From IMG/VR virus record IMGVR_UViG_3300033149_006423, positions 1 through 41,888 of that record: a DNA stretch of 41,888 bases; one strand, given 5' to 3'. The notes under the pieces were generated by a model, which was not told the origin of the DNA, ran no database searches, and saw only the letters and a program-made list of their open reading frames with translations. This DNA comes from a virus. Positions 3,282 through 33,597 of this stretch are shown here, piece after piece (within the stretch, counting starts at the first letter, position 1; every line of letters begins with the position of its first letter). The translations under genes were made by a program, and so were the position numbers.

Positions 3282-3848
3282 TTAAAAGTAGCTTTTGCGC
3301 AAAGACCTTACTTCGGGTTTTAAAAGCTCATAGCACTGTTCCAGGGCCTTTACGTCCTTCTTACAGTGCTCCACCAGCTTATTTATGCCTGACTTATCAC
3401 CGGTTATCGCCTGCCGGTAGTACATGGAGTTTATATAGGTCTTTTCTTCGATCTTCTTTTTTCCGCTCCGGGTGGAGTTTAAAAAACATATCAGGGAATT
3501 GAGCTTGTTGTTATGGAGCTTAAGCCGGTACTTGGTAATATAAAACACGTCCACGTGGAACATGTCCTTCATGGGCTCAAGCCCGTAGCATATAAGCTGG
3601 CTTCGTAAGAATGGCAGGTCAAAATTCCTGCCGTTATAGGTGATAAGTCCGTCATACTCTTGCAGGTATTCTCTCACATCCTTTACCAGCGGCTTGTCGT
3701 TGTAGCGTGCCTTTTTCCACACCTTGTAATCGTCAATCCGAAATATATCCATCTTCTCCTTCCCGTACTCTTTGGCTACCACGCATACCACAAAGCCAAA
3801 GTCGGCATTTAGGTTAGAAGTTTCGATGTCAAGTGATACGAACTTCAA
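3282..3848 (-). CDS. DnaQ-like (DEDDh) 3'-5' exonuclease
   Basis: The protein has 188 residues. ExoI motif D7-I-E9-T, ExoII motif YNGRNFD77LPF and ExoIII motif H161-x3-D165 (HCKKDVKAL) make the DEDDh set of two-metal exonucleases. The closest match by eye is the ribonuclease H-like YprB/PolB-exonuclease type. The start is TTG at 3848, with GCAGGAGGT at good spacing. An exonuclease inside the late lysis cluster is unusual; it may trim DNA ends or degrade host DNA. Activity is inferred from motifs only. Confidence 0.8.
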   Translation of the reverse strand: MKFVSLDIETSNLNADFGFVVCVVAKEYGKEKMDIFRIDDYKVWKKARYNDKPLVKDVREYLQEYDGLITYNGRNFDLPFLRSQLICYGLEPMKDMFHVDVFYITKYRLKLHNNKLNSLICFLNSTRSGKKKIEEKTYINSMYYRQAITGDKSGINKLVEHCKKDVKALEQCYELLKPEVRSLRKSYF

Positions 3849-3863
3849 ATAAATACCTCCTGC

Positions 3864-3992
3864 TTAATTGCTGTTTAGTTTGTCAAAAAACTTTCTTGTT
3901 TCATCGTCCAGCCGGACTTTAGAACCGGCAAGGCTTAAAATAGTTAGCAGCCTTATTTTAAGGTTGTCAGTAATTTTAACTAATAAAACCAT
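3864..3992 (-). CDS. Small basic protein coupled to the lysin, unknown
   Basis: This frame of 42 residues starts at ATG 3992 inside the end of the lysin gene and stops at 3864, just upstream of the exonuclease ribosome site. Its N-terminal half is amphipathic/hydrophobic (MVLLVKITDNLKIRLLTILS) and the C-terminal half is charged. Overlap with the upstream stop suggests coupling. No family is recognised. It fills a gap that would otherwise be empty. Confidence 0.45.
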   Translation of the reverse strand: MVLLVKITDNLKIRLLTILSLAGSKVRLDDETRKFFDKLNSN

Positions 3993-4864
3993 AGGGATTG
4001 CCTTTTTCTTCTATCTATGTGCAGAAAATTTTTGCCTATTCCAAACCCCCTGCAATCAGTACTGGCTTTCATGACTTGGTAAAACTGGTAGGTGGTAAGC
4101 CCCCTGGGGGTATATATATCTACCGCATTGGCAGTTTTATGCTGTGACCTACCTGCTCCTCCTGCCAGTATGTTGTAGGTTTCCTGCCTGAACCAGCAAC
4201 CGTTGGGAGTAACTATAAAAGGCTGCCCTACAGCATCCCTTCCTTTCTGTAACTGTATGGCAAGACTCTTGACGGACTTATCATATTCGGGGTAGGGCTC
4301 TATAACCCGGTAGTAGGTTTTTCTGCCCATCCGGACATTGGAGTAGGTTTCTCTTCTTTTGAAATTGGGAGTAAGTCCCGGCACTATCTCTTCTTCCGGA
4401 TCGTGCTCCCAGTCTATCTCGTATATCCTTGTAGAAAGGATAGTTTTGCGCAAAGTTTCCGTGTATGAAGGAGATGTTGCGTAACCATTAAGTCTTACAT
4501 AGTTGGTAGCTTCCCACCAGTCAGGGGATTTTCGTGTCTCCCTATATCTATCAAGCATAAGTATTCTAATATAGCCTTCCTCTATACATTCCTCTATGGA
4601 ATCAAAAATGACAAAGGGAGCCTTAACTGGCCGGTATTTTCCACCTATCCACTCTTTTGTCCATAACATCTGTTTCCTGGATTCAGGGTACCTGGAAGTC
4701 CATTTAATTCCCAGGCAGTTATTGCCGGGAGCATGTTTTAGGTAACTGCTTTCTACCAGTACCTGTCCTATCAGCAGTGACAGTTTACCCTTAAGCCAGC
4801 AGTGCTTTGCCCTCAAACTGTAAGCTATCGGTTTTAAGGTGTTGATTGCTTCGGTTTTAGTCAT
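3980..4864 (-). CDS. Bifunctional endolysin: glucosaminidase plus M15 peptidase
   Basis: This protein of 294 residues starts at ATG 4864 (TAATG overlap with the upstream gene, AAGGT ribosome site). Residues 1-150 match the FlgJ/LytG-type glucosaminidase: catalytic E38 in QVLVESSYL, then NNCLGIKW and a YATSPSYTETL segment. The C-terminal part is an M15 D-Ala-D-Ala peptidase with zinc ligands H242 and D249 (SQHKTANAVD) and H282 (HID). Together they would cut both glycan strands and peptide cross-links. No signal peptide is seen, so release depends on the holins. The long middle (150-190) is a linker. Confidence 0.85.
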   Translation of the reverse strand: MTKTEAINTLKPIAYSLRAKHCWLKGKLSLLIGQVLVESSYLKHAPGNNCLGIKWTSRYPESRKQMLWTKEWIGGKYRPVKAPFVIFDSIEECIEEGYIRILMLDRYRETRKSPDWWEATNYVRLNGYATSPSYTETLRKTILSTRIYEIDWEHDPEEEIVPGLTPNFKRRETYSNVRMGRKTYYRVIEPYPEYDKSVKSLAIQLQKGRDAVGQPFIVTPNGCWFRQETYNILAGGAGRSQHKTANAVDIYTPRGLTTYQFYQVMKASTDCRGFGIGKNFLHIDRRKRQSLWFY

Positions 4865-23933: not shown

Positions 23934-24010
23934 TGGCTGCGTATATGGGATTTGAACCCATGCTAACACCTTGACAGGATGCCGTGCTAACCAGATTACA
24001 CTAATACGCC
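23934..24010 (-). tRNA. tRNA-Asp (anticodon GTC)
   Basis: A complete cloverleaf: acceptor GGCGTAT/ATACGCA, D arm GTGT...GCAC, anticodon arm GCATC-CTGTCAA-GGTGT giving GTC, T arm ATGGG-TTCAAAT-CCCAT, then G73 and encoded CCA. G73 is an Asp identity base. The first acceptor pair is a G1-A72 mismatch, which is odd. The tRNA-Met gene ends 7 bp upstream. Confidence 0.88.
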
Positions 24011-24017
24011 TAAAAAC

Positions 24018-24091
24018 TGGTTGCGGATAAGGGATTCGAACCCTTGGTAGCAGGGCATGAACCTGCTGTGTTTCCGCTACACTAATCCGCT
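24018..24091 (-). tRNA. tRNA-Met (anticodon CAT)
   Basis: The cloverleaf has D arm GTGT...ACAC, anticodon arm GCAGG-TTCATGC-CCTGC (CAT), 4-base variable loop, T arm AAGGG-TTCGAAT-CCCTT, A73 and encoded CCA. The acceptor is GCGGAT/ATCCGC with an A1-A72 mismatch at the end. A 1-72 mismatch is a mark of bacterial initiator tRNA, but the three G-C anticodon pairs are not complete, so elongator, initiator or a lysidine-modified Ile tRNA all remain possible. Confidence 0.85.
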
Positions 24092-24572: not shown

Positions 24573-24649
24573 TGGTGGAGATGGGGGGAGTCGAACCCCC
24601 GTCAGGTGTGTTCCAAAATGGAACGTACACCACAAACCATTACATCCCC
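24573..24649 (-). tRNA. tRNA-like gene with tmRNA-type ends and no normal anticodon loop
   Basis: GGGGATG (24649-24643) pairs with CATCTCC, followed by A73 and CCA, and the T arm GGGGG-TTCGACT-CCCCC is perfect. The third acceptor pair is G-U, the alanine identity element. The 5' side TAATGGTTTGTGG does not form a D stem, much like the D loop of tmRNA. The middle is one long hairpin (GGTGT, bulge, GTTCC-ATTTT-GGAAC, ACACC) with a 5-base loop and no U33 plus anticodon. It looks like the tRNA-like domain of tmRNA capped by a short P2 helix, in 77 bases. It is the first RNA of the island on this strand. Confidence 0.6.
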
Positions 24650-27892: not shown

Positions 27893-28225
27893 TCAATCAC
27901 GATTTAACAAGTGCAAAATATCCCTGATCACCCTGTTTTTACGATACTGGTAAGTACGAACCGAACACCGCAATAAACTTGCCCGGATCGGGTCAGAAAG
28001 AGCGGGATCAAGCCAGAGCTCCAGGACATACTTTTCGGTCGGGGCCAGCCGGATGGCTGCTGTTGCTTGCCGGACATCAACGTACTTATTAATCAGGGCG
28101 GTAAAATTTGCATTGCCCGGGACTGATCCGCTGGGTCCCACCTGGATGGGCCCGGAACCCAGGCATAAAAGATCCTCCATATCCAGCAGCAAAAAATATC
28201 GTATGTCGCTAACTTTATAACCCAT
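27893..28225 (-). CDS. HTH regulator resembling sigma region 4 / ArpU
   Basis: The protein has 110 residues, ATG 28225 after CTGGGAGTT. The C-terminal part APTEKYVLELWLDPALSDP then IRASLLRCSVRTYQYRKNRV has the layout of region 4/ArpU helix-turn-helix domains, where a hydrophobic helix is followed by a recognition helix beginning SVRTYQYRKN. It is divergent from the early operon and leads a two-gene unit reading toward the late region. The likely role is late activation; that is inferred. Confidence 0.55.
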   Translation of the reverse strand: MGYKVSDIRYFLLLDMEDLLCLGSGPIQVGPSGSVPGNANFTALINKYVDVRQATAAIRLAPTEKYVLELWLDPALSDPIRASLLRCSVRTYQYRKNRVIRDILHLLNRD

Positions 28226-28259
28226 AACTCCCAGAAATTAATAAATTTTGTATTAAAAA

Positions 28260-28298
28260 CTTGACATTATGATAATATCATGAGATAATCAAGTCAAG
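28260..28298 (+). promoter_or_regulatory. Early operon promoter with internal dyad
   Basis: TTGACA (28261-28266), a 17-bp spacer and GATAAT (28284-28289) make a near-consensus promoter. The spacer holds ATGAT-AAT-ATCAT (28269-28281), and CTTGAC (28260)/GTCAAG (28293) bracket the whole promoter. These dyads are good repressor-site candidates. The octamer AATATCAT is shared with the repressor-gene control region at 33534. Confidence 0.85.
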
Positions 28299-28323
28299 AT
28301 AAAAACTTAATTGGGGGGAAATA

Positions 28324-28515
28324 ATGAAACTAACAGACTTAAATCTTGAGCTTAGGACGTTCAACGCCCTAAGCCAGGCCGGTATATCTGGAGAACAGGT
28401 CGCCAGTATGTACCGCAATAGCGACCTTGGTATCCTTTGCGATTGGATCCGCAATTTTGGAGCCAAGGCCAAGGCCGATTTGGAAACCGCACTTAACAAA
28501 TATTATCAAAAATAA
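28324..28515 (+). CDS. Stand-alone RNA polymerase alpha C-terminal domain-like protein
   Basis: The entire 63-residue protein aligns with bacterial alpha-CTD. DLNLELRTFNALSQAGI matches the helix 1 region, and IRNFGAKAKADLETAL matches the helix-hairpin-helix end. Residues contacting UP-element DNA in E. coli alpha appear kept: R11 (R265), N14 (N268), G46 (G296) and K48 (K298), with A49 for S299. There is no N-terminal dimerisation domain. It is the first gene after the early promoter, with GGGGGGAAATA before the ATG, so it is probably made early and in quantity. It may bind promoter DNA or compete with host alpha; function is inferred. Confidence 0.8.
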   Translation: MKLTDLNLELRTFNALSQAGISGEQVASMYRNSDLGILCDWIRNFGAKAKADLETALNKYYQK

Positions 28516-28528
28516 AAAGGGGAAAACT

Positions 28529-28687
28529 ATGAAAAACATAAGATTAGAGAAAAGCGGACTAAGTTGTCCCAGGTGCGGCCATGAAACACTGATCATCGTC
28601 GAAACAGAAAACGGGGTAGATTATGAAGTTGGGGAAAAATGCCCCGATGGATGTTTTAATATAGTGTTTCAAAAGGAGGAACTATGA
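28529..28687 (+). CDS. Zinc-ribbon protein, 52 residues
   Basis: ATG 28529 follows AAAAAGGGGAAAACT. CPRCGH and a later KCPDGCF give four cysteines in a ribbon-like arrangement, with an acidic strand between. It follows the alpha-CTD mimic by 13 bp and overlaps the next gene by ATGA. A transcription-related role is suggested only by context. Confidence 0.65.
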   Translation: MKNIRLEKSGLSCPRCGHETLIIVETENGVDYEVGEKCPDGCFNIVFQKEEL

Positions 28688-29043
28688 GAGTAACGCTAAC
28701 CAAAAAAAAGATTGATAGCATTTTTAGGGATGCTAAAAATCAGTATGAAGTATTTACCAGGCTCTACAAAGCAACGATACCTAATTGGGACAATGTATCA
28801 AAAATACAAGATTGGCCCATCGTGAACAACAAAACAGGATCTTATATTTTTCAAAAATTTATCGAGTTTGACAGCACGTATCATCCGGACGTTATATCAG
28901 GCGGCCTATGGCTGAACAGCGGTTTTACATTAGATAATTCCAGGAACTTAAAAGACTGGAAAGTTTTTATTCCTAAAAAAGCGGTGATATATAAAGGGGG
29001 GAACTATGAAAAGTATAAATCAAAAAGGCTCAGCAGTTGCTAA
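28684..29043 (+). CDS. Early protein of unknown function
   Basis: The 119-residue protein has a basic N-terminal helix (TKKKIDSIFRDAKNQYEVFT), several Trp residues and a mixed alpha/beta pattern. Its start overlaps the upstream stop (ATGA) with AAAGGAGGAACT as ribosome site. The last 38 bp overlap the next gene. No family is recognised. Confidence 0.6.
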   Translation: MRVTLTKKKIDSIFRDAKNQYEVFTRLYKATIPNWDNVSKIQDWPIVNNKTGSYIFQKFIEFDSTYHPDVISGGLWLNSGFTLDNSRNLKDWKVFIPKKAVIYKGGNYEKYKSKRLSSC

Positions 29044-29320
29044 ACTGCTGGGAACAGACGAAAAAGAAAAAACCATCGGCGACTACTGCACCGAACACGA
29101 CCAGGTATGTAGCAAATATGGGCCTGAATCTGAACAGGCAAAAAGGAAACGGGCAGAAATAAATAATATTTACGGGCTTGATGTCAAAACAGCAATGGAC
29201 GGGCTTTTAGGGTTGCTTGGAGTATATACCGTACAGCCCTGGGAAGTAGAAAATTATCTTGATTGGCAGTTACTACATTTACCATATTTAAAGGGGGGAA
29301 ATAAGAATGAAAACATGTAA
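29006..29320 (+). CDS. Early protein of unknown function
   Basis: The 104-residue charged protein has a helical N-terminal part (TDEKEKTIGDYCTEHDQVCSKYG). Ribosome site AAAGGGGGGAACT supports the start inside the previous gene. The C-terminal overlap with the next gene is 14 bp. No domain is recognised. Confidence 0.6.
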   Translation: MKSINQKGSAVAKLLGTDEKEKTIGDYCTEHDQVCSKYGPESEQAKRKRAEINNIYGLDVKTAMDGLLGLLGVYTVQPWEVENYLDWQLLHLPYLKGGNKNENM

Positions 29321-29624
29321 AGAGAGAATCGATGAAAATCTAAAACACCGGCTGGAAGAGATGAGAGAGATCCTGGAAATAGAAGACCCGGATAAAGCAA
29401 TAGACCGAATTGATGGGATATCCCTTGCTTATTCGGATGACCAGCATTACCGGGCCAAAAACTGGTTACTATCCACCGGGGGACCTGAGGACGGTTTCAG
29501 GTTCTTTGAAGATGGGACAATAGAATATTATTTCAAAGACTGGTTTGATGGAGCAGTTCGGGAACTGTACGGGGAAGAAAAACAGATTATGGAGGAAATT
29601 TACAGCCGGTTTTTTGGCTTCTAA
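29307..29624 (+). CDS. Early acidic protein of unknown function
   Basis: The 105-residue acidic protein opens with KTCKERIDENLKHRLEEMRE, a style common to small phage early proteins (ERIxExLxxRLE). It ends with SRFFGF at TAA 29622-29624. That stop codon is the first base-paired segment of the structured RNA element at 29622-29678. AAGGGGGGAAATAAGA precedes the start. Confidence 0.6.
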   Translation: MKTCKERIDENLKHRLEEMREILEIEDPDKAIDRIDGISLAYSDDQHYRAKNWLLSTGGPEDGFRFFEDGTIEYYFKDWFDGAVRELYGEEKQIMEEIYSRFFGF

Positions 29625-29690
29625 TAATCTGAGGGTTGGGCAAGATATTAATGATCTTGCCTTTCCCTGAAATTATTATAAGGGGATTGG
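29622..29690 (+). promoter_or_regulatory. Structured RNA element, copy 1
   Basis: Three stacked stems begin at the stop codon of the upstream gene: TAATAAT (29622-29628)/ATTATTA (29672-29678), AGGG (29632-29635)/CCCT (29665-29668) and GGCAAGAT (29639-29646)/ATCTTGCC (29654-29661) with loop ATTAATG. AAGGGG, the next ribosome site, follows at once. A second copy at 31421-31490 shows compensatory changes, so the fold is probably real. A regulatory role in translation of the next gene is inferred. Confidence 0.7.
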
Positions 29691-29692
29691 CT

Positions 29693-29845
29693 ATGATAAA
29701 CGATAAAATAAAACACGAACTAAAAAACAGCAGCAATAGCCGGTTGTTTGAACTGATGGTCAAGTATCAGGACAATTTTTTAGTTATAAAGGCAATCGCC
29801 AAAGAACTTAATAAAAGGCTATCACGTTACAAATTAAGGGGGTGA
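29693..29845 (+). CDS. Small early protein, unknown
   Basis: This 50-residue, helical, basic protein (INDKIKHELKNSSNSRLFEL) starts at ATG 29693 behind AAGGGGATTGGCT, immediately after RNA element copy 1. In-frame codons further upstream lie inside that element and are unlikely starts. No family is recognised. Confidence 0.55.
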   Translation: MINDKIKHELKNSSNSRLFELMVKYQDNFLVIKAIAKELNKRLSRYKLRG

Positions 29846-29848
29846 AAC

Positions 29849-30007
29849 ATGGAATTAAAATTTATAAAGGAGAGAGAAACAAAAAACACCATCAGGTATC
29901 AGGAAGATGCAGGGGACGATCCCCAGGTAGTGGGAACCCTGTATATCCAAAAGTGGGCGGTGAAACAACTGGGAAATCCGGACCGCATAACCGTAACAAT
30001 CAAATAA
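29849..30007 (+). CDS. Small conserved phage protein (ELKFIKERETKNTIRYQE type)
   Basis: This 52-residue frame has ribosome site AAGGGGGTGAAAC. The pattern ELKFIKERETKNTIRYQE ... GTLYIQKWAV ... ITVTI is one I recall from many phages and mobile elements as a small beta-rich conserved protein without known function. It sits 3 bp after the previous gene. Confidence 0.65.
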   Translation: MELKFIKERETKNTIRYQEDAGDDPQVVGTLYIQKWAVKQLGNPDRITVTIK

Positions 30008-30066
30008 CCGATCCTGGTTGACTTTATGAGCCAGCCGGGACTGGATTTTAAAAGAAAGGGGGGAAT
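30005..30066 (+). promoter_or_regulatory. Hairpin region before the next early gene
   Basis: After the stop, ATCC...GGAT encloses TGGTT-GACTTTATG-AGCCA and is followed by AAAGGGGGG, the next ribosome site. It shares the 'stop codon, hairpin, ribosome site' layout with the elements at 29622 and 31421 but not their sequence. It is a possible translational control hairpin. Confidence 0.35.
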
Positions 30067-30067
30067 C

Positions 30068-30211
30068 ATGAGACGCAATAATATAGCAGACCGCATCAGC
30101 AGTTTAAAGTACATGGCAGAAAACGGGCAGGTAAAAAGATATGAATATTATAAACAACTAAAAGTTTTAAAACGGCTGGGCGGTAATCATAGCATGGCAA
30201 AAGCAGGATAG
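30068..30211 (+). CDS. Small basic early protein, unknown
   Basis: The 47-residue basic protein (RRNNIADRISSLKYMAENGQ) starts at ATG 30068 with AAAGGGGGGAATC upstream. The helical first half and KVLKRLGG suggest nucleic-acid binding. No family is recognised. Confidence 0.55.
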   Translation: MRRNNIADRISSLKYMAENGQVKRYEYYKQLKVLKRLGGNHSMAKAG

Positions 30212-30275
30212 GGAAAGGCCGGGCAGAAACCCGGCCAATATCCTAAAAGGTAACGCATTTTAAGAAGGGAGGTGA
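30209..30275 (+). promoter_or_regulatory. Strong hairpin between early genes
   Basis: AGGAT/ATCCT encloses GGCCGGG-CAGAAA-CCCGGCC (about 30217-30236) directly after the stop codon. No U-run follows; AAGGGAGGTGATAAGTA then leads the next gene. It is either an mRNA processing/stability hairpin or a weak attenuator. Confidence 0.5.
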
Positions 30276-30281
30276 TAAGTA

Positions 30282-30536
30282 ATGAGCATGGGTACAAGAA
30301 ATTTGAAAGCAATACTTAATTTTGAGAGCAAAGAACTGGAAACTACCCTGGAAAAGGCAAAACTAACCAAAGTAAAATTTAAAAAATTAGAGCCGGATAA
30401 AATACAGATGTGCTTCTACCGACTGGGCAGGGTAATGGCAGTAACAGATATGATACTATCAGACCAACTCAGTAGTCTGACCATGCAAGCTATAAAGGAA
30501 GCAATAGAAGAAGAACAAAAACCGGTAGAAAGTTAA
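30282..30536 (+). CDS. Early protein of unknown function
   Basis: This 84-residue charged protein has the ribosome site GGGAGGTGATAAGTA. The N-terminal helix (FESKELETTLEKAKLTKVKF) is followed by RLGRVMAVTDMILSDQ and an acidic tail. No family is recognised. Confidence 0.6.
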   Translation: MSMGTRNLKAILNFESKELETTLEKAKLTKVKFKKLEPDKIQMCFYRLGRVMAVTDMILSDQLSSLTMQAIKEAIEEEQKPVES

Positions 30537-30554
30537 TTGAAAGGTGGTGTTAAA

Positions 30555-30773
30555 ATGAAAATGAATATAATTTATTTATCCTTTGATTTTCATACTGAAG
30601 ATCGTAAGCGGGTAGCATTTGAGGTTGAATATGATGATTGTTATGACTACTCCATGAATTTTACCATAGACAATCTCCACGTTAAAATCCACCCGGACCG
30701 GAAAGGCCTGGAAATGATAAGGGATGAAATAAATAATGTGCTGGAGAAAGAAAAAGAGCTGATGCCGAGATGA
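30555..30773 (+). CDS. Early acidic protein, unknown
   Basis: The 72-residue protein starts at ATG 30555 behind AAAGGTGGTGTTAAA; an in-frame TTG at 30537 precedes that ribosome site. Alternating strands (IIYLSFDFHTED, VAFEVEYDDCYDYSM) and a C-terminal helix suggest a small alpha/beta fold. It overlaps the next mini-gene by ATGA. Confidence 0.58.
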   Translation: MKMNIIYLSFDFHTEDRKRVAFEVEYDDCYDYSMNFTIDNLHVKIHPDRKGLEMIRDEINNVLEKEKELMPR

Positions 30774-30871
30774 CTTTTAAAAAACGGAAATTTAAGAAGT
30801 GTAAAACCTGTAAAGACTTAGTTTTGCAGTTTTACGATTGTGACATTTGCCCGCTAAGGAAAGGCAGGTGA
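30770..30871 (+). CDS. 33-residue mini zinc finger
   Basis: ATGA overlap with the previous gene, then a basic start (TFKKRKFKK), CKTC and CDIC pairs 10 residues apart, and a basic tail (PLRKGR). The four cysteines and charge suggest a tiny nucleic-acid-binding zinc knuckle. Length limits certainty, but coupling on the upstream side supports it. Confidence 0.5.
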   Translation: MTFKKRKFKKCKTCKDLVLQFYDCDICPLRKGR

Positions 30872-30875
30872 TTGT

Positions 30876-30956
30876 ATGGTAGTAACTATTGTTTTACTCG
30901 TACTGGCATTGATTATTATAGGTCTAGTACTAAGCATGTTTTTTAAAAAAGACTAA
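30876..30956 (+). CDS. 26-residue membrane peptide
   Basis: ATG 30876 follows AGGTGATTGT. The peptide is one long hydrophobic segment (VVTIVLLVLALIIIGLVLSM) ending FFKKD. This single-span mini-protein lies at the end of the first early transcript, just before the promoter at 30962. Its function is unknown; membrane targeting is clear from composition. Confidence 0.5.
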   Translation: MVVTIVLLVLALIIIGLVLSMFFKKD

Positions 30957-30961
30957 AAATT

Positions 30962-30969
30962 GGTATAAT
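30962..30969 (+). promoter_or_regulatory. Extended -10 promoter within the early region
   Basis: TGGTATAAT is present (TATAAT 30964-30969) with no clear -35. The surrounding AAAAATTGGTATAAT is identical to that of the tRNA-like gene promoter at 2663. It would give separate expression of the genes at 30996 and 31246. Confidence 0.65.
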
Positions 30970-30995
30970 TGACTACAAAAAAGGAGGAGTAAAAA

Positions 30996-31193
30996 ATGAA
31001 AACGATAAGAACCACAAGAAACGGAAAGGGACAGATAATCAAAACAGGGAATTATGAGTATTCTTCTCTAGGCTGGAATCATTATCACCGAATTCTCAAG
31101 GGCAGAAATGCTCATGAATGGCACGCTGATCCTAAGGACATGTATAAAACATGTCCAAAGTGTGCCAAAACTTGTAAGGAAGATAAAAAATAA
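30996..31193 (+). CDS. Small protein with C-terminal CPKCAKTC
   Basis: The 65-residue, basic, His/Tyr-rich protein has the ribosome site AAAGGAGGAGTAAAAA. Three cysteines (CPKCAKTC) end it. The compact NHYHRILKGRNAHEWHADPK segment may add histidine ligands. It is the first gene after the extended -10 promoter. No family is recognised. Confidence 0.58.
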   Translation: MKTIRTTRNGKGQIIKTGNYEYSSLGWNHYHRILKGRNAHEWHADPKDMYKTCPKCAKTCKEDKK

Positions 31194-31245
31194 GAACCCA
31201 GAACGTGGAATACAAATAATAAATAATAAAAGCAAGGAGAGCAAA

Positions 31246-31425
31246 ATGGAAACTAAGGAAAAATATATAGTGGTAAACCAATATGGCATAGGTGGGGATA
31301 AGGGAGAAATAGCCTACTCCCCAAAAAGTTATGGAAAAAAGTCTCATGAAGCATGCCAGGAATGGTGCAAGAGAAATGATAGAGTCGGTACAATGATGAT
31401 TGTACGAGATACAGACCTGGAATAG
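31246..31425 (+). CDS. Small early protein, unknown
   Basis: ATG 31246 follows GCAAGGAGAGCAAA. The 59-residue product (ETKEKYIVVNQYGIGG ... EWCKRNDRVGTMMIVRDTD) looks like a small beta-rich fold. Its TAG stop lies in the first stem of the structured RNA element copy 2, as in copy 1. Confidence 0.55.
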   Translation: METKEKYIVVNQYGIGGDKGEIAYSPKSYGKKSHEACQEWCKRNDRVGTMMIVRDTDLE

Positions 31426-31532: not shown

Positions 31533-31576
31533 GTGTTTGTACAACTGCCGGTAATAGGTTGTACGGATACCTACCA
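31527..31576. other. Putative attP for the serine integrase
   Basis: A 50-bp interrupted palindrome has outer arms TGGTAGGT (31527-31534)/ACCTACCA (31569-31576) and inner arms GTACAAC (31539-31545)/GTTGTAC (31558-31564), all centred between 31551 and 31552. The centre dinucleotide would be GT. Length, symmetry and position over the integrase stop codon match attP sites of large serine recombinases. Use as attP is inferred. Confidence 0.75.
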
Positions 31577-32968
31577 TGTTATTTTAGCCCATTTTATCAC
31601 GATCCGGCTGGTATCCCTCTGTTTGGTAACTGCCGGTTTTATAACTATACTATCAACCAGGACGGACAGGATAGTCCGCTTGTCTTCAACGGGCATGGGA
31701 CCTATCAAGTCCTTAATGTCCAAATCTTTTATAAACTGGTAGTCTGTACACTCAAAGGTAGCGCTCTTACTCTCAAGCTCGCCTATTTCCTTCTCTACCT
31801 TCCTATACTCGGAAAGGTAACGCCCTTTTTCCATCCTGCCCTCAAGATATTCATCCTGTATCCTTTTAAGCTTACCCTCCAGGTGCTTTTTGGCAATACC
31901 GATATCCGGAGTCATAACTTCACTCTTTTTTAGCTTTTGGGCAGCTTTCTGCTTTAACCTATTTTGCACATTTTTAATTTTTTTGCAAACCTCGCCCAGT
32001 ACATACTCATGGACAAAGCTTTCCCTGATACATACCCCGTGCTTACATATATTAAACTTCTTGTTCCGGCAGTAATACTTACCCCGGCCCTCAAAGATTA
32101 AAGAACCGCCGCATGAGCCGCACCGCATAATGCCGGTCAATAGATGCGAAACCCCAGCCCTTATTCCCTTATGTTTTTTAGCTCTAACCATACGATTAGC
32201 CCGGTCAAAAAGTTTTTGGCTCACAATAGCCGGATGCTGCCCATTATATATTTTATCCTTATGTCTTACAAATCCGCAAAACAGGACGTTACCCACCATG
32301 TAGCGGAGAGTGGATACGTAAAAGAAGCCGCCGGACTTGGTTCTCACACCCCGCTGGTTAAGCTCTTTGGTAAGCGAAGTCATGGTCTGACCCATGGCCA
32401 GCCTTTCAAAGATCATCTTAACTATCTTGGCTTCTTTGGGATTTACTTTAAGAGTTTTACTCTCTTTATCGTAATCATAACCCAGCATGGTGGTAGGGTT
32501 GGATATTACTTTGCCTTCCTGGGCCCTCTGAGCTATGGCCCGCTTGGTTCTCTGCCGTATCATGCCCCTCTCATACTTGGCAAATACCCCCATCATGTCG
32601 CTTAAGGCATCTTTAGCAATATCGGCAAAATCGATTATACCCTCTTTTTCGGTAATAAAAGAGGTTTTTGATTTCTGCATAATGGACTTTATCAGCCAGA
32701 AATCATTGCCCCTGGCTATGCGGTCCTGGTCCAAAGCGATAATATAATCAGGTTTCAAAACCTTTAAATCGTCCAGTAGTTGTAACATCTGGGGGCGCTT
32801 GTCTATGGTAGCCCCGCTGATACCTTCGTCTTCGTAGACCCCCACAATATCGCAATCATGCTTTTGTGCTAACTGGTGGGTGATTTTCCTCTGGACTGGA
32901 AGACTGTAGCCATCTTTCTGCTGGTCGGTTGAATACCGGTGATAGACAAATGCGGTTTTTTTCTCCAT
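31571..32968 (-). CDS. int: Large serine recombinase (phage integrase)
   Basis: The 465-residue protein carries a resolvase catalytic domain with nucleophile S13 (YHRYSTDQQ) and DRIARG near residue 82, then a recombinase domain. A zinc ribbon (C283-x2-C286 ... C300 ... C308) and a long coiled coil (about 325-405) follow. This is the full domain order of serine integrases. It should recombine attP with host attB without host factors. Putative attP overlaps its stop. The start ATG 32968 has weak GTGAGC upstream, and AGTAAG-CATAT-CTTACT forms a hairpin 20 bases earlier. Confidence 0.92.
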   Translation of the reverse strand: MEKKTAFVYHRYSTDQQKDGYSLPVQRKITHQLAQKHDCDIVGVYEDEGISGATIDKRPQMLQLLDDLKVLKPDYIIALDQDRIARGNDFWLIKSIMQKSKTSFITEKEGIIDFADIAKDALSDMMGVFAKYERGMIRQRTKRAIAQRAQEGKVISNPTTMLGYDYDKESKTLKVNPKEAKIVKMIFERLAMGQTMTSLTKELNQRGVRTKSGGFFYVSTLRYMVGNVLFCGFVRHKDKIYNGQHPAIVSQKLFDRANRMVRAKKHKGIRAGVSHLLTGIMRCGSCGGSLIFEGRGKYYCRNKKFNICKHGVCIRESFVHEYVLGEVCKKIKNVQNRLKQKAAQKLKKSEVMTPDIGIAKKHLEGKLKRIQDEYLEGRMEKGRYLSEYRKVEKEIGELESKSATFECTDYQFIKDLDIKDLIGPMPVEDKRTILSVLVDSIVIKPAVTKQRDTSRIVIKWAKITW

Positions 32969-33136: not shown

Positions 33137-33487
33137 TTATTTTGTTTTATTTTCCATAAGCCTGCTGATAATGGCCTGCACTATCTTCCTGGTATCTGAA
33201 TCAAGCTCTTCAAGGCTTACAATACCGTTATTGGTTCCGACAGCAGTCTCAATATCCTGGAAAAAATATTCTATCGGTTTACCTACTGCCGTCGCAACTT
33301 TCATAATATCGTATATGGTGGTTTCTTTAATCCCAGTTTCCAACCGGTATATTACCTGCCTACTAATACCGGATCGCTTAGAAAGCTCTTCCTGGGTTAT
33401 ACCTGCTTCTGCCCTGGCCAGCCTGATCCGCCTACCAATTTTCTGAGCTAATTCATTTTTGATTTCCTTGTCTCTTTCTACTCTCAT
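33137..33487 (-). CDS. XRE-family repressor (CI/Cro-like)
   Basis: The 116-residue protein starts at ATG 33487 behind CAGGGGGGTTC; upstream in-frame codons overlap its control region. Residues 15-75 are a classic XRE helix-turn-helix (IRLARAEAGITQEELSKRSG, ISRQVIYRLETG) and the C-terminal helix may dimerise. It lies beside the integrase and divergent from the replication operon, so it is the probable lysogeny repressor. There is no peptidase domain, so induction would need another signal. Confidence 0.85.
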   Translation of the reverse strand: MRVERDKEIKNELAQKIGRRIRLARAEAGITQEELSKRSGISRQVIYRLETGIKETTIYDIMKVATAVGKPIEYFFQDIETAVGTNNGIVSLEELDSDTRKIVQAIISRLMENKTK

Positions 33488-33524
33488 GAACCCCCCCTGC
33501 ATAATTACTTTAGTAAACCAATTA

Positions 33525-33597
33525 TAACATAAAAATATCATATTTTGTTATTTTTTATGTTATTAGGCTTGACATATATACTTATAGGTGTTATTAT
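33525..33597. promoter_or_regulatory. Repressor/replication divergent control region
   Basis: The + promoter is TTGACA (33569-33574), 17 bp, TATTAT (33592-33597). On the - strand, TATAAT overlaps 33527-33522, facing the repressor gene. Between them TAACATAAAAA (33525-33535) and TTTTTATGTTA (33552-33562) form a perfect 11-bp inverted repeat spaced by 16 bp, overlapping the repressor's own -10. This fits autoregulation and control of the replication operon. Confidence 0.8.

Follow-up and report, generated by a model that had tools for sequence, protein, structure and literature searches.

Genomic context of the locus

The window analyzed here, an IMG/VR virus record of 41,888 bp, represents a temperate phage that encodes an SU10-type capsid protein and portal. 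Between its late genes and its integrase lies an operon whose first gene encodes a 63-aa protein resembling the C-terminal domain of the RNA polymerase alpha subunit (alpha-CTD). The features of this region and its surroundings are as follows:

From 28225 leftward, minus strand: late genes
27893..28225, minus strand: 110-aa gene that heads the leftward late operon, without a Pfam family, 31% identity to its equivalent in a cousin phage
28239..28260, plus strand: UP-element-like sequence TAATAAATTTTGTATTAAAAAC, 12/14 consensus positions
28261..28289, plus strand: sigma-70/A-type promoter TTGACA-17-(TGa)GATAAT, 11/12 matches, extended -10
28269..28281, no strand assigned: 13-bp palindrome ATGATAATATCAT, within the promoter spacer
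28269..28297, minus strand: candidate leftward promoter TTGACT-17-TATCAT of the late operon, overlapping the rightward promoter DNA
28313..28318, plus strand: Shine-Dalgarno-like G run GGGGGG, 5 nt upstream of the ATG, recognized by sequence
28324 to about 31425, plus strand: second rightward operon, with the 63-aa ORF first
28324..28515, plus strand: CDS (P0001), 63 aa, free-standing alpha-CTD-type domain
28529..28687, plus strand: second operon gene, 52-aa CPxCG zinc-ribbon protein, with sub-threshold family matches only (Lar-like)
28684..31425, plus strand: other small genes of the operon, mostly without family matches
31571-32968, leftward: integrase
33137-33541, leftward: cI-like repressor
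33569..33597, plus strand: separate early promoter TTGACA-17-TATTAT, beside cI
Behind the promoter at 33569, rightward: replication genes (PD-(D/E)XK nuclease, ERF, SSB, DnaB)

The 110-aa product of the first late gene looks like a late regulator. The host could not be named, because a terminase-based search of GTDB genomes gave no match. Genes for tRNA-Asp and tRNA-Met are situated at 23934-24091, near an Rfam tmRNA match (24573-24649, minus strand) that measures only 77 nt and spans both ends of the model with its middle missing.

A 41-kb cousin phage (L009/L013/G001) shares 46-48% identity with the window in the terminase, 41% in the integrase and 45% in the nuclease, and no alpha-CTD match was found in it. 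Its operon in the equivalent slot carries RadC, ArdC-N, DUF2958 and YopX genes; the slot flanked by late genes and integrase is therefore an accessory, partly anti-restriction, region.

Promoter region and operon

The preliminary description had placed the gene first in the early operon, behind a near-consensus promoter. The promoter was borne out: only those at 28261 and 33569 combine 11/12 matches with an extended -10 in the window, and these are the two best-scoring. The gene is indeed the first of an operon, but this is the accessory operon (28324 to about 31425) and not the replication operon, since the replication genes follow the separate promoter at 33569 beside cI.

The UP score of the alpha-CTD gene promoter is the best among the promoters listed. 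A match as good as that at 28239-28260 was reached by 0.9% of same-composition shuffles (P about 0.009, for a fixed place in A/T-rich DNA). Matches such as the leftward candidate at 28269..28297 are expected at chance frequency and are weak evidence for a promoter. By its sequence, the palindrome ATGATAATATCAT in the spacer is a possible operator. As to its control by cI, no second exact copy occurs elsewhere in the window, and a site with two mismatches is found at 33529-33541, adjoining cI. Also adjoining cI is a perfect 12-nt inverted repeat, ATAACATAAAAA/TTTTTATGTTAT (33524-33563), a likely operator for the repressor.

Coding evidence and identity of the 63-aa protein

The ORF at 28324-28515 is confirmed as a genuine coding gene, with a codon score of +0.199 in frame 0, the sole positive value among the six frames. 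An opposite-strand ORF (28278-28499, minus strand) was ruled out by its codon score of -0.251. A decayed host rpoA was likewise ruled out, as there is no remnant of the N-terminal domain upstream and both promoter and ribosome site are intact.

The Pfam scan returned RNA_pol_A_CTD (PF03118) as the sole family (E=5.5e-4), at 20.1 bits against a curated cut-off of 23.8 bits, and NCBIfam matched the C-termini of rpoA models (E 2.1e-4). All ten matches in a PDB sequence search were RNA polymerase alpha, although they were weak (E 0.15-1.9). A local profile was built from 20 alpha-CTDs and run over 946 window segments and 20,000 shuffles; the 63-aa ORF ranked first of the 946 segments (E 6.9e-5) with 19.0 bits, whereas no shuffle exceeded 10.9. 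The protein is thus confirmed as an alpha-CTD-type domain and nothing else, as proposed in the preliminary description, even though the Pfam score falls below its cut-off. The dimerization and assembly domain at the N-terminus of RpoA and the linker are absent, also as first described: the frame is open only from 28303, and the product has the length of a bare alpha-CTD.

Identity to the alpha-CTDs of B. subtilis and E. coli is only 20-26%, yet the DNA-contact residues are kept. The four equivalents named in the first reading of the sequence, R11 (R265), N14 (N268), G46 (G296) and K48 (K298), are all in place, and N44 (N294) can be added to them. By alignment, R265 and G296 correspond to R261 and G292 of B. 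subtilis, where replacement by alanine proved impossible (PMC4495994). The alpha-CTD-specific N-terminal signature DLxLxxRxxNxLxxAGI is also retained. The equivalents of C269 and S299 are both Ala, and at protein-contact positions that of E261 is Asn and that of K271 is Ser. An insertion of about four residues precedes the hairpin; an alternative alignment has two 2-residue gaps instead.

Structure models

A single-sequence fold of the protein gave a helical model (pLDDT 83.9); a structure search with it returned no PDB matches, and its matches among viral models were only noise. AlphaFold2 was also run on an alignment (A5) of ten phage alpha-CTDs, and the resulting fold is conditional on that alignment. 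This model (pLDDT 90.4) has helices at residues 3-6, 10-18, 23-31, 36-41 and 47-62, in the order of the alpha-CTD. In a PDB search its top eight hits were RNA polymerase alpha or alpha-CTD chains, the kind of protein in the input alignment, with a TM score of 0.78 and an rmsd of 1.2 A to 1lb2_B and a TM score of 0.72 to 9dvt_A; alpha-CTDs in complex with Spx (3gfk_B and 1z3e_B) are matched as well. The preliminary description had named a generic helix-hairpin-helix (HhH) unrelated to alpha-CTD as the structure that would speak against it. The alignment-based model argues against such a fold; because this model was given an alpha-CTD alignment and the single-sequence one had no match, the structural support is not independent.

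Occurrence in other phages

No close homologues of the 63-aa protein were found by tblastn or pattern search in IMG/VR, phages and plasmids. At the level of the domain, free-standing or fused alpha-CTDs are present in other viral records: Goe8 c00050, Microbacterium phage Mazun gp26, mycobacteriophage gp51, faecal phage fusions, contigs L035-L046 and the protein P0002. Several of the contigs from IMG/VR and from faecal samples lack annotation, and host DNA could be among them. Some phage alpha-CTDs that outscore the 63-aa protein have lost G296 or N268.

Several arrangements of the domain were observed among these records. Phage proteins of about 310-340 aa in L007, L008, L041 and L044 combine the alpha-CTD with an HTH and a part resembling sigma region 4, and look like home-made transcription factors. 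In L036, two alpha-CTD genes are adjacent (84 aa at 3443-3697, then 175 aa at 3698-4225). In L046, a good alpha-CTD-like frame (3956-4159, 73 bits) begins immediately behind the stop of an ORF that looks ProQ-like; it has none of the usual start codons, and could be reached by read-through or an unusual start.

No papers on any phage-encoded alpha-CTD protein were found in the open-access literature. Free-standing and fused phage alpha-CTDs are thus already present in databases, the 63-aa protein is unusually small and divergent among them and, as far as we have found, the kind is apparently unstudied. The present finding would draw attention to these scattered proteins, both free-standing and fused to HTH or sigma-4-like parts, which are mostly missed by current phage family libraries.

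Proposed role of the 63-aa protein

An alpha-CTD protein without the alpha N-terminal domain is not incorporable into polymerase, and therefore the 63-aa protein cannot enter the enzyme. The phage probably uses it to adjust the promoter choice of polymerase. The preliminary description, whose interpretation is borne out in part, had suggested that it could compete at UP elements or redirect polymerase. Our leading, still tentative, proposal, to which we give somewhat less than an even chance, is that it serves as a DNA-binding alpha-CTD decoy at UP-like elements, including its own. Through the retained contact residues, the domain would bind the A/T-rich minor groove at such elements and, once bound, would compete with the alpha-CTD of host polymerase and lower UP-dependent transcription. 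Its targets would be host promoters and its own promoter, with its good UP match, so that feedback autoregulation could result; we infer the binding, the competition, this feedback and the timing. The above-chance similarity, the alignment-based model, the kept contacts, the B. subtilis finding on two of them, and the promoter with its extended -10 and UP match speak for a decoy, as do the UP match at the Goe8 c00050 promoter and the precedents of gp67 and T4 Alt/ModA. Against it stand the replacement of C269 and S299 by Ala, the insertion before the hairpin, the lack of PDB matches to the single-sequence model and the location of the UP match in A/T-rich DNA. The isolated alpha-CTD is generally a weak DNA binder, and competition would thus need high amounts or dimerization; no dimer element was seen in the 63-aa protein. 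The cousin phage also counts against the decoy, since a phage of this type without an alpha-CTD implies that the function is dispensable.

Alternatively, the protein could act chiefly on proteins, with DNA contact secondary, by binding host or phage partners of alpha-CTD such as Spx-type factors, activators or sigma region 4. These would then be sequestered, or tethered to promoters of the phage. Activators are known to use the alpha-CTD as a hub, and the matches to Spx-bound structures would suit this role. Fusions in L007, L041 and L044 indicate that phages use alpha-CTD as a connector to HTH or sigma-4-like parts. However, the positions that have changed are protein contacts (E261 and K271) while the DNA contacts are kept. 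We consider this explanation rather unlikely.

It is also rather unlikely that the protein is a small HhH DNA-binding accessory protein, derived from alpha-CTD and repurposed without a promoter role, for example in a counter-defence or DNA-processing operon. The gene content of the cousin's slot would fit such an operon, as would the neighbouring zinc-ribbon gene with its sub-threshold Lar-like match, and the sub-cut-off Pfam score and the insertions are what a repurposed domain might display. Retention of the N-terminal signature and the match to RNA_pol_A_CTD only, with no generic HhH family, argue in the other direction.

More doubtful still is a one-domain switch, in which the protein would act on its own overlapping promoter pair: it would take the place of host alpha-CTD at the UP element (28239-28260), turn down the rightward promoter and thereby free the overlapping leftward late promoter; if this were true, a phage switch would be timed by a copied piece of host polymerase. 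The weak database scores, the short length and the lack of close homologues might suggest that the resemblance is due to chance or that the frame is non-coding, but this is extremely improbable given that all 20,000 shuffles scored at least 8 bits lower and that the gene has a promoter, a ribosome site and the codon bias of a coding frame.

Comparison with known systems

The 63-aa protein has the N-terminal signature, the NxG hairpin and the R265, N268, N294, G296 and K298 equivalents in common with the host alpha-CTD of B. subtilis and E. coli RpoA, as well as, in the alignment-based model, the helix order. It differs from these in its low identity, its lack of the N-terminal domain and linker, the substitutions C269A, S299A, E261N and K271S, and the insertion of about four residues.

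Among phage and plasmid proteins, Bacillus phage Goe8 c00050 (QDP42789.1, annotated 'RNA polymerase subunit alpha') is likewise an alpha-CTD without the alpha N-terminal domain, and has its own promoter with a UP-like sequence (11/14 match). It differs in being 210 aa long with an unrelated N-terminal part, in being present in two copies near both genome ends, and in lying much nearer to host alpha-CTD (78 bits). P0002, the 84-aa protein of viral contig L036, is another small, free-standing phage alpha-CTD (Pfam E 5e-13), but has His for N268 and Val for G296, and has the second alpha-CTD gene adjoining. The 106-aa Aneurinibacillus protein WP_272443785.1 ('alpha C-terminal domain-containing protein'), borne on a large plasmid, is also free-standing, but carries an N-terminal extension and has His for G296.

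Phages attack the contact between alpha-CTD and the UP element by means of enzymes or sigma-binding proteins. Such interference is an established strategy: gp67 of Staphylococcus phage G1 interferes with alpha-CTD/UP contacts via sigma-A (PMC3792026), and T4 Alt and ModA are enzymes that modify Arg265 of alpha (PMC2988021). The decoy proposed for the 63-aa protein would share with them the aim of acting on this contact; it would differ in its route, since the passages cited describe neither gp67 nor Alt/ModA as an alpha-CTD mimic (PMC3792026, PMC2988021). A bare copy of the domain would be another route to the same end, a natural competitor for one domain of the polymerase.
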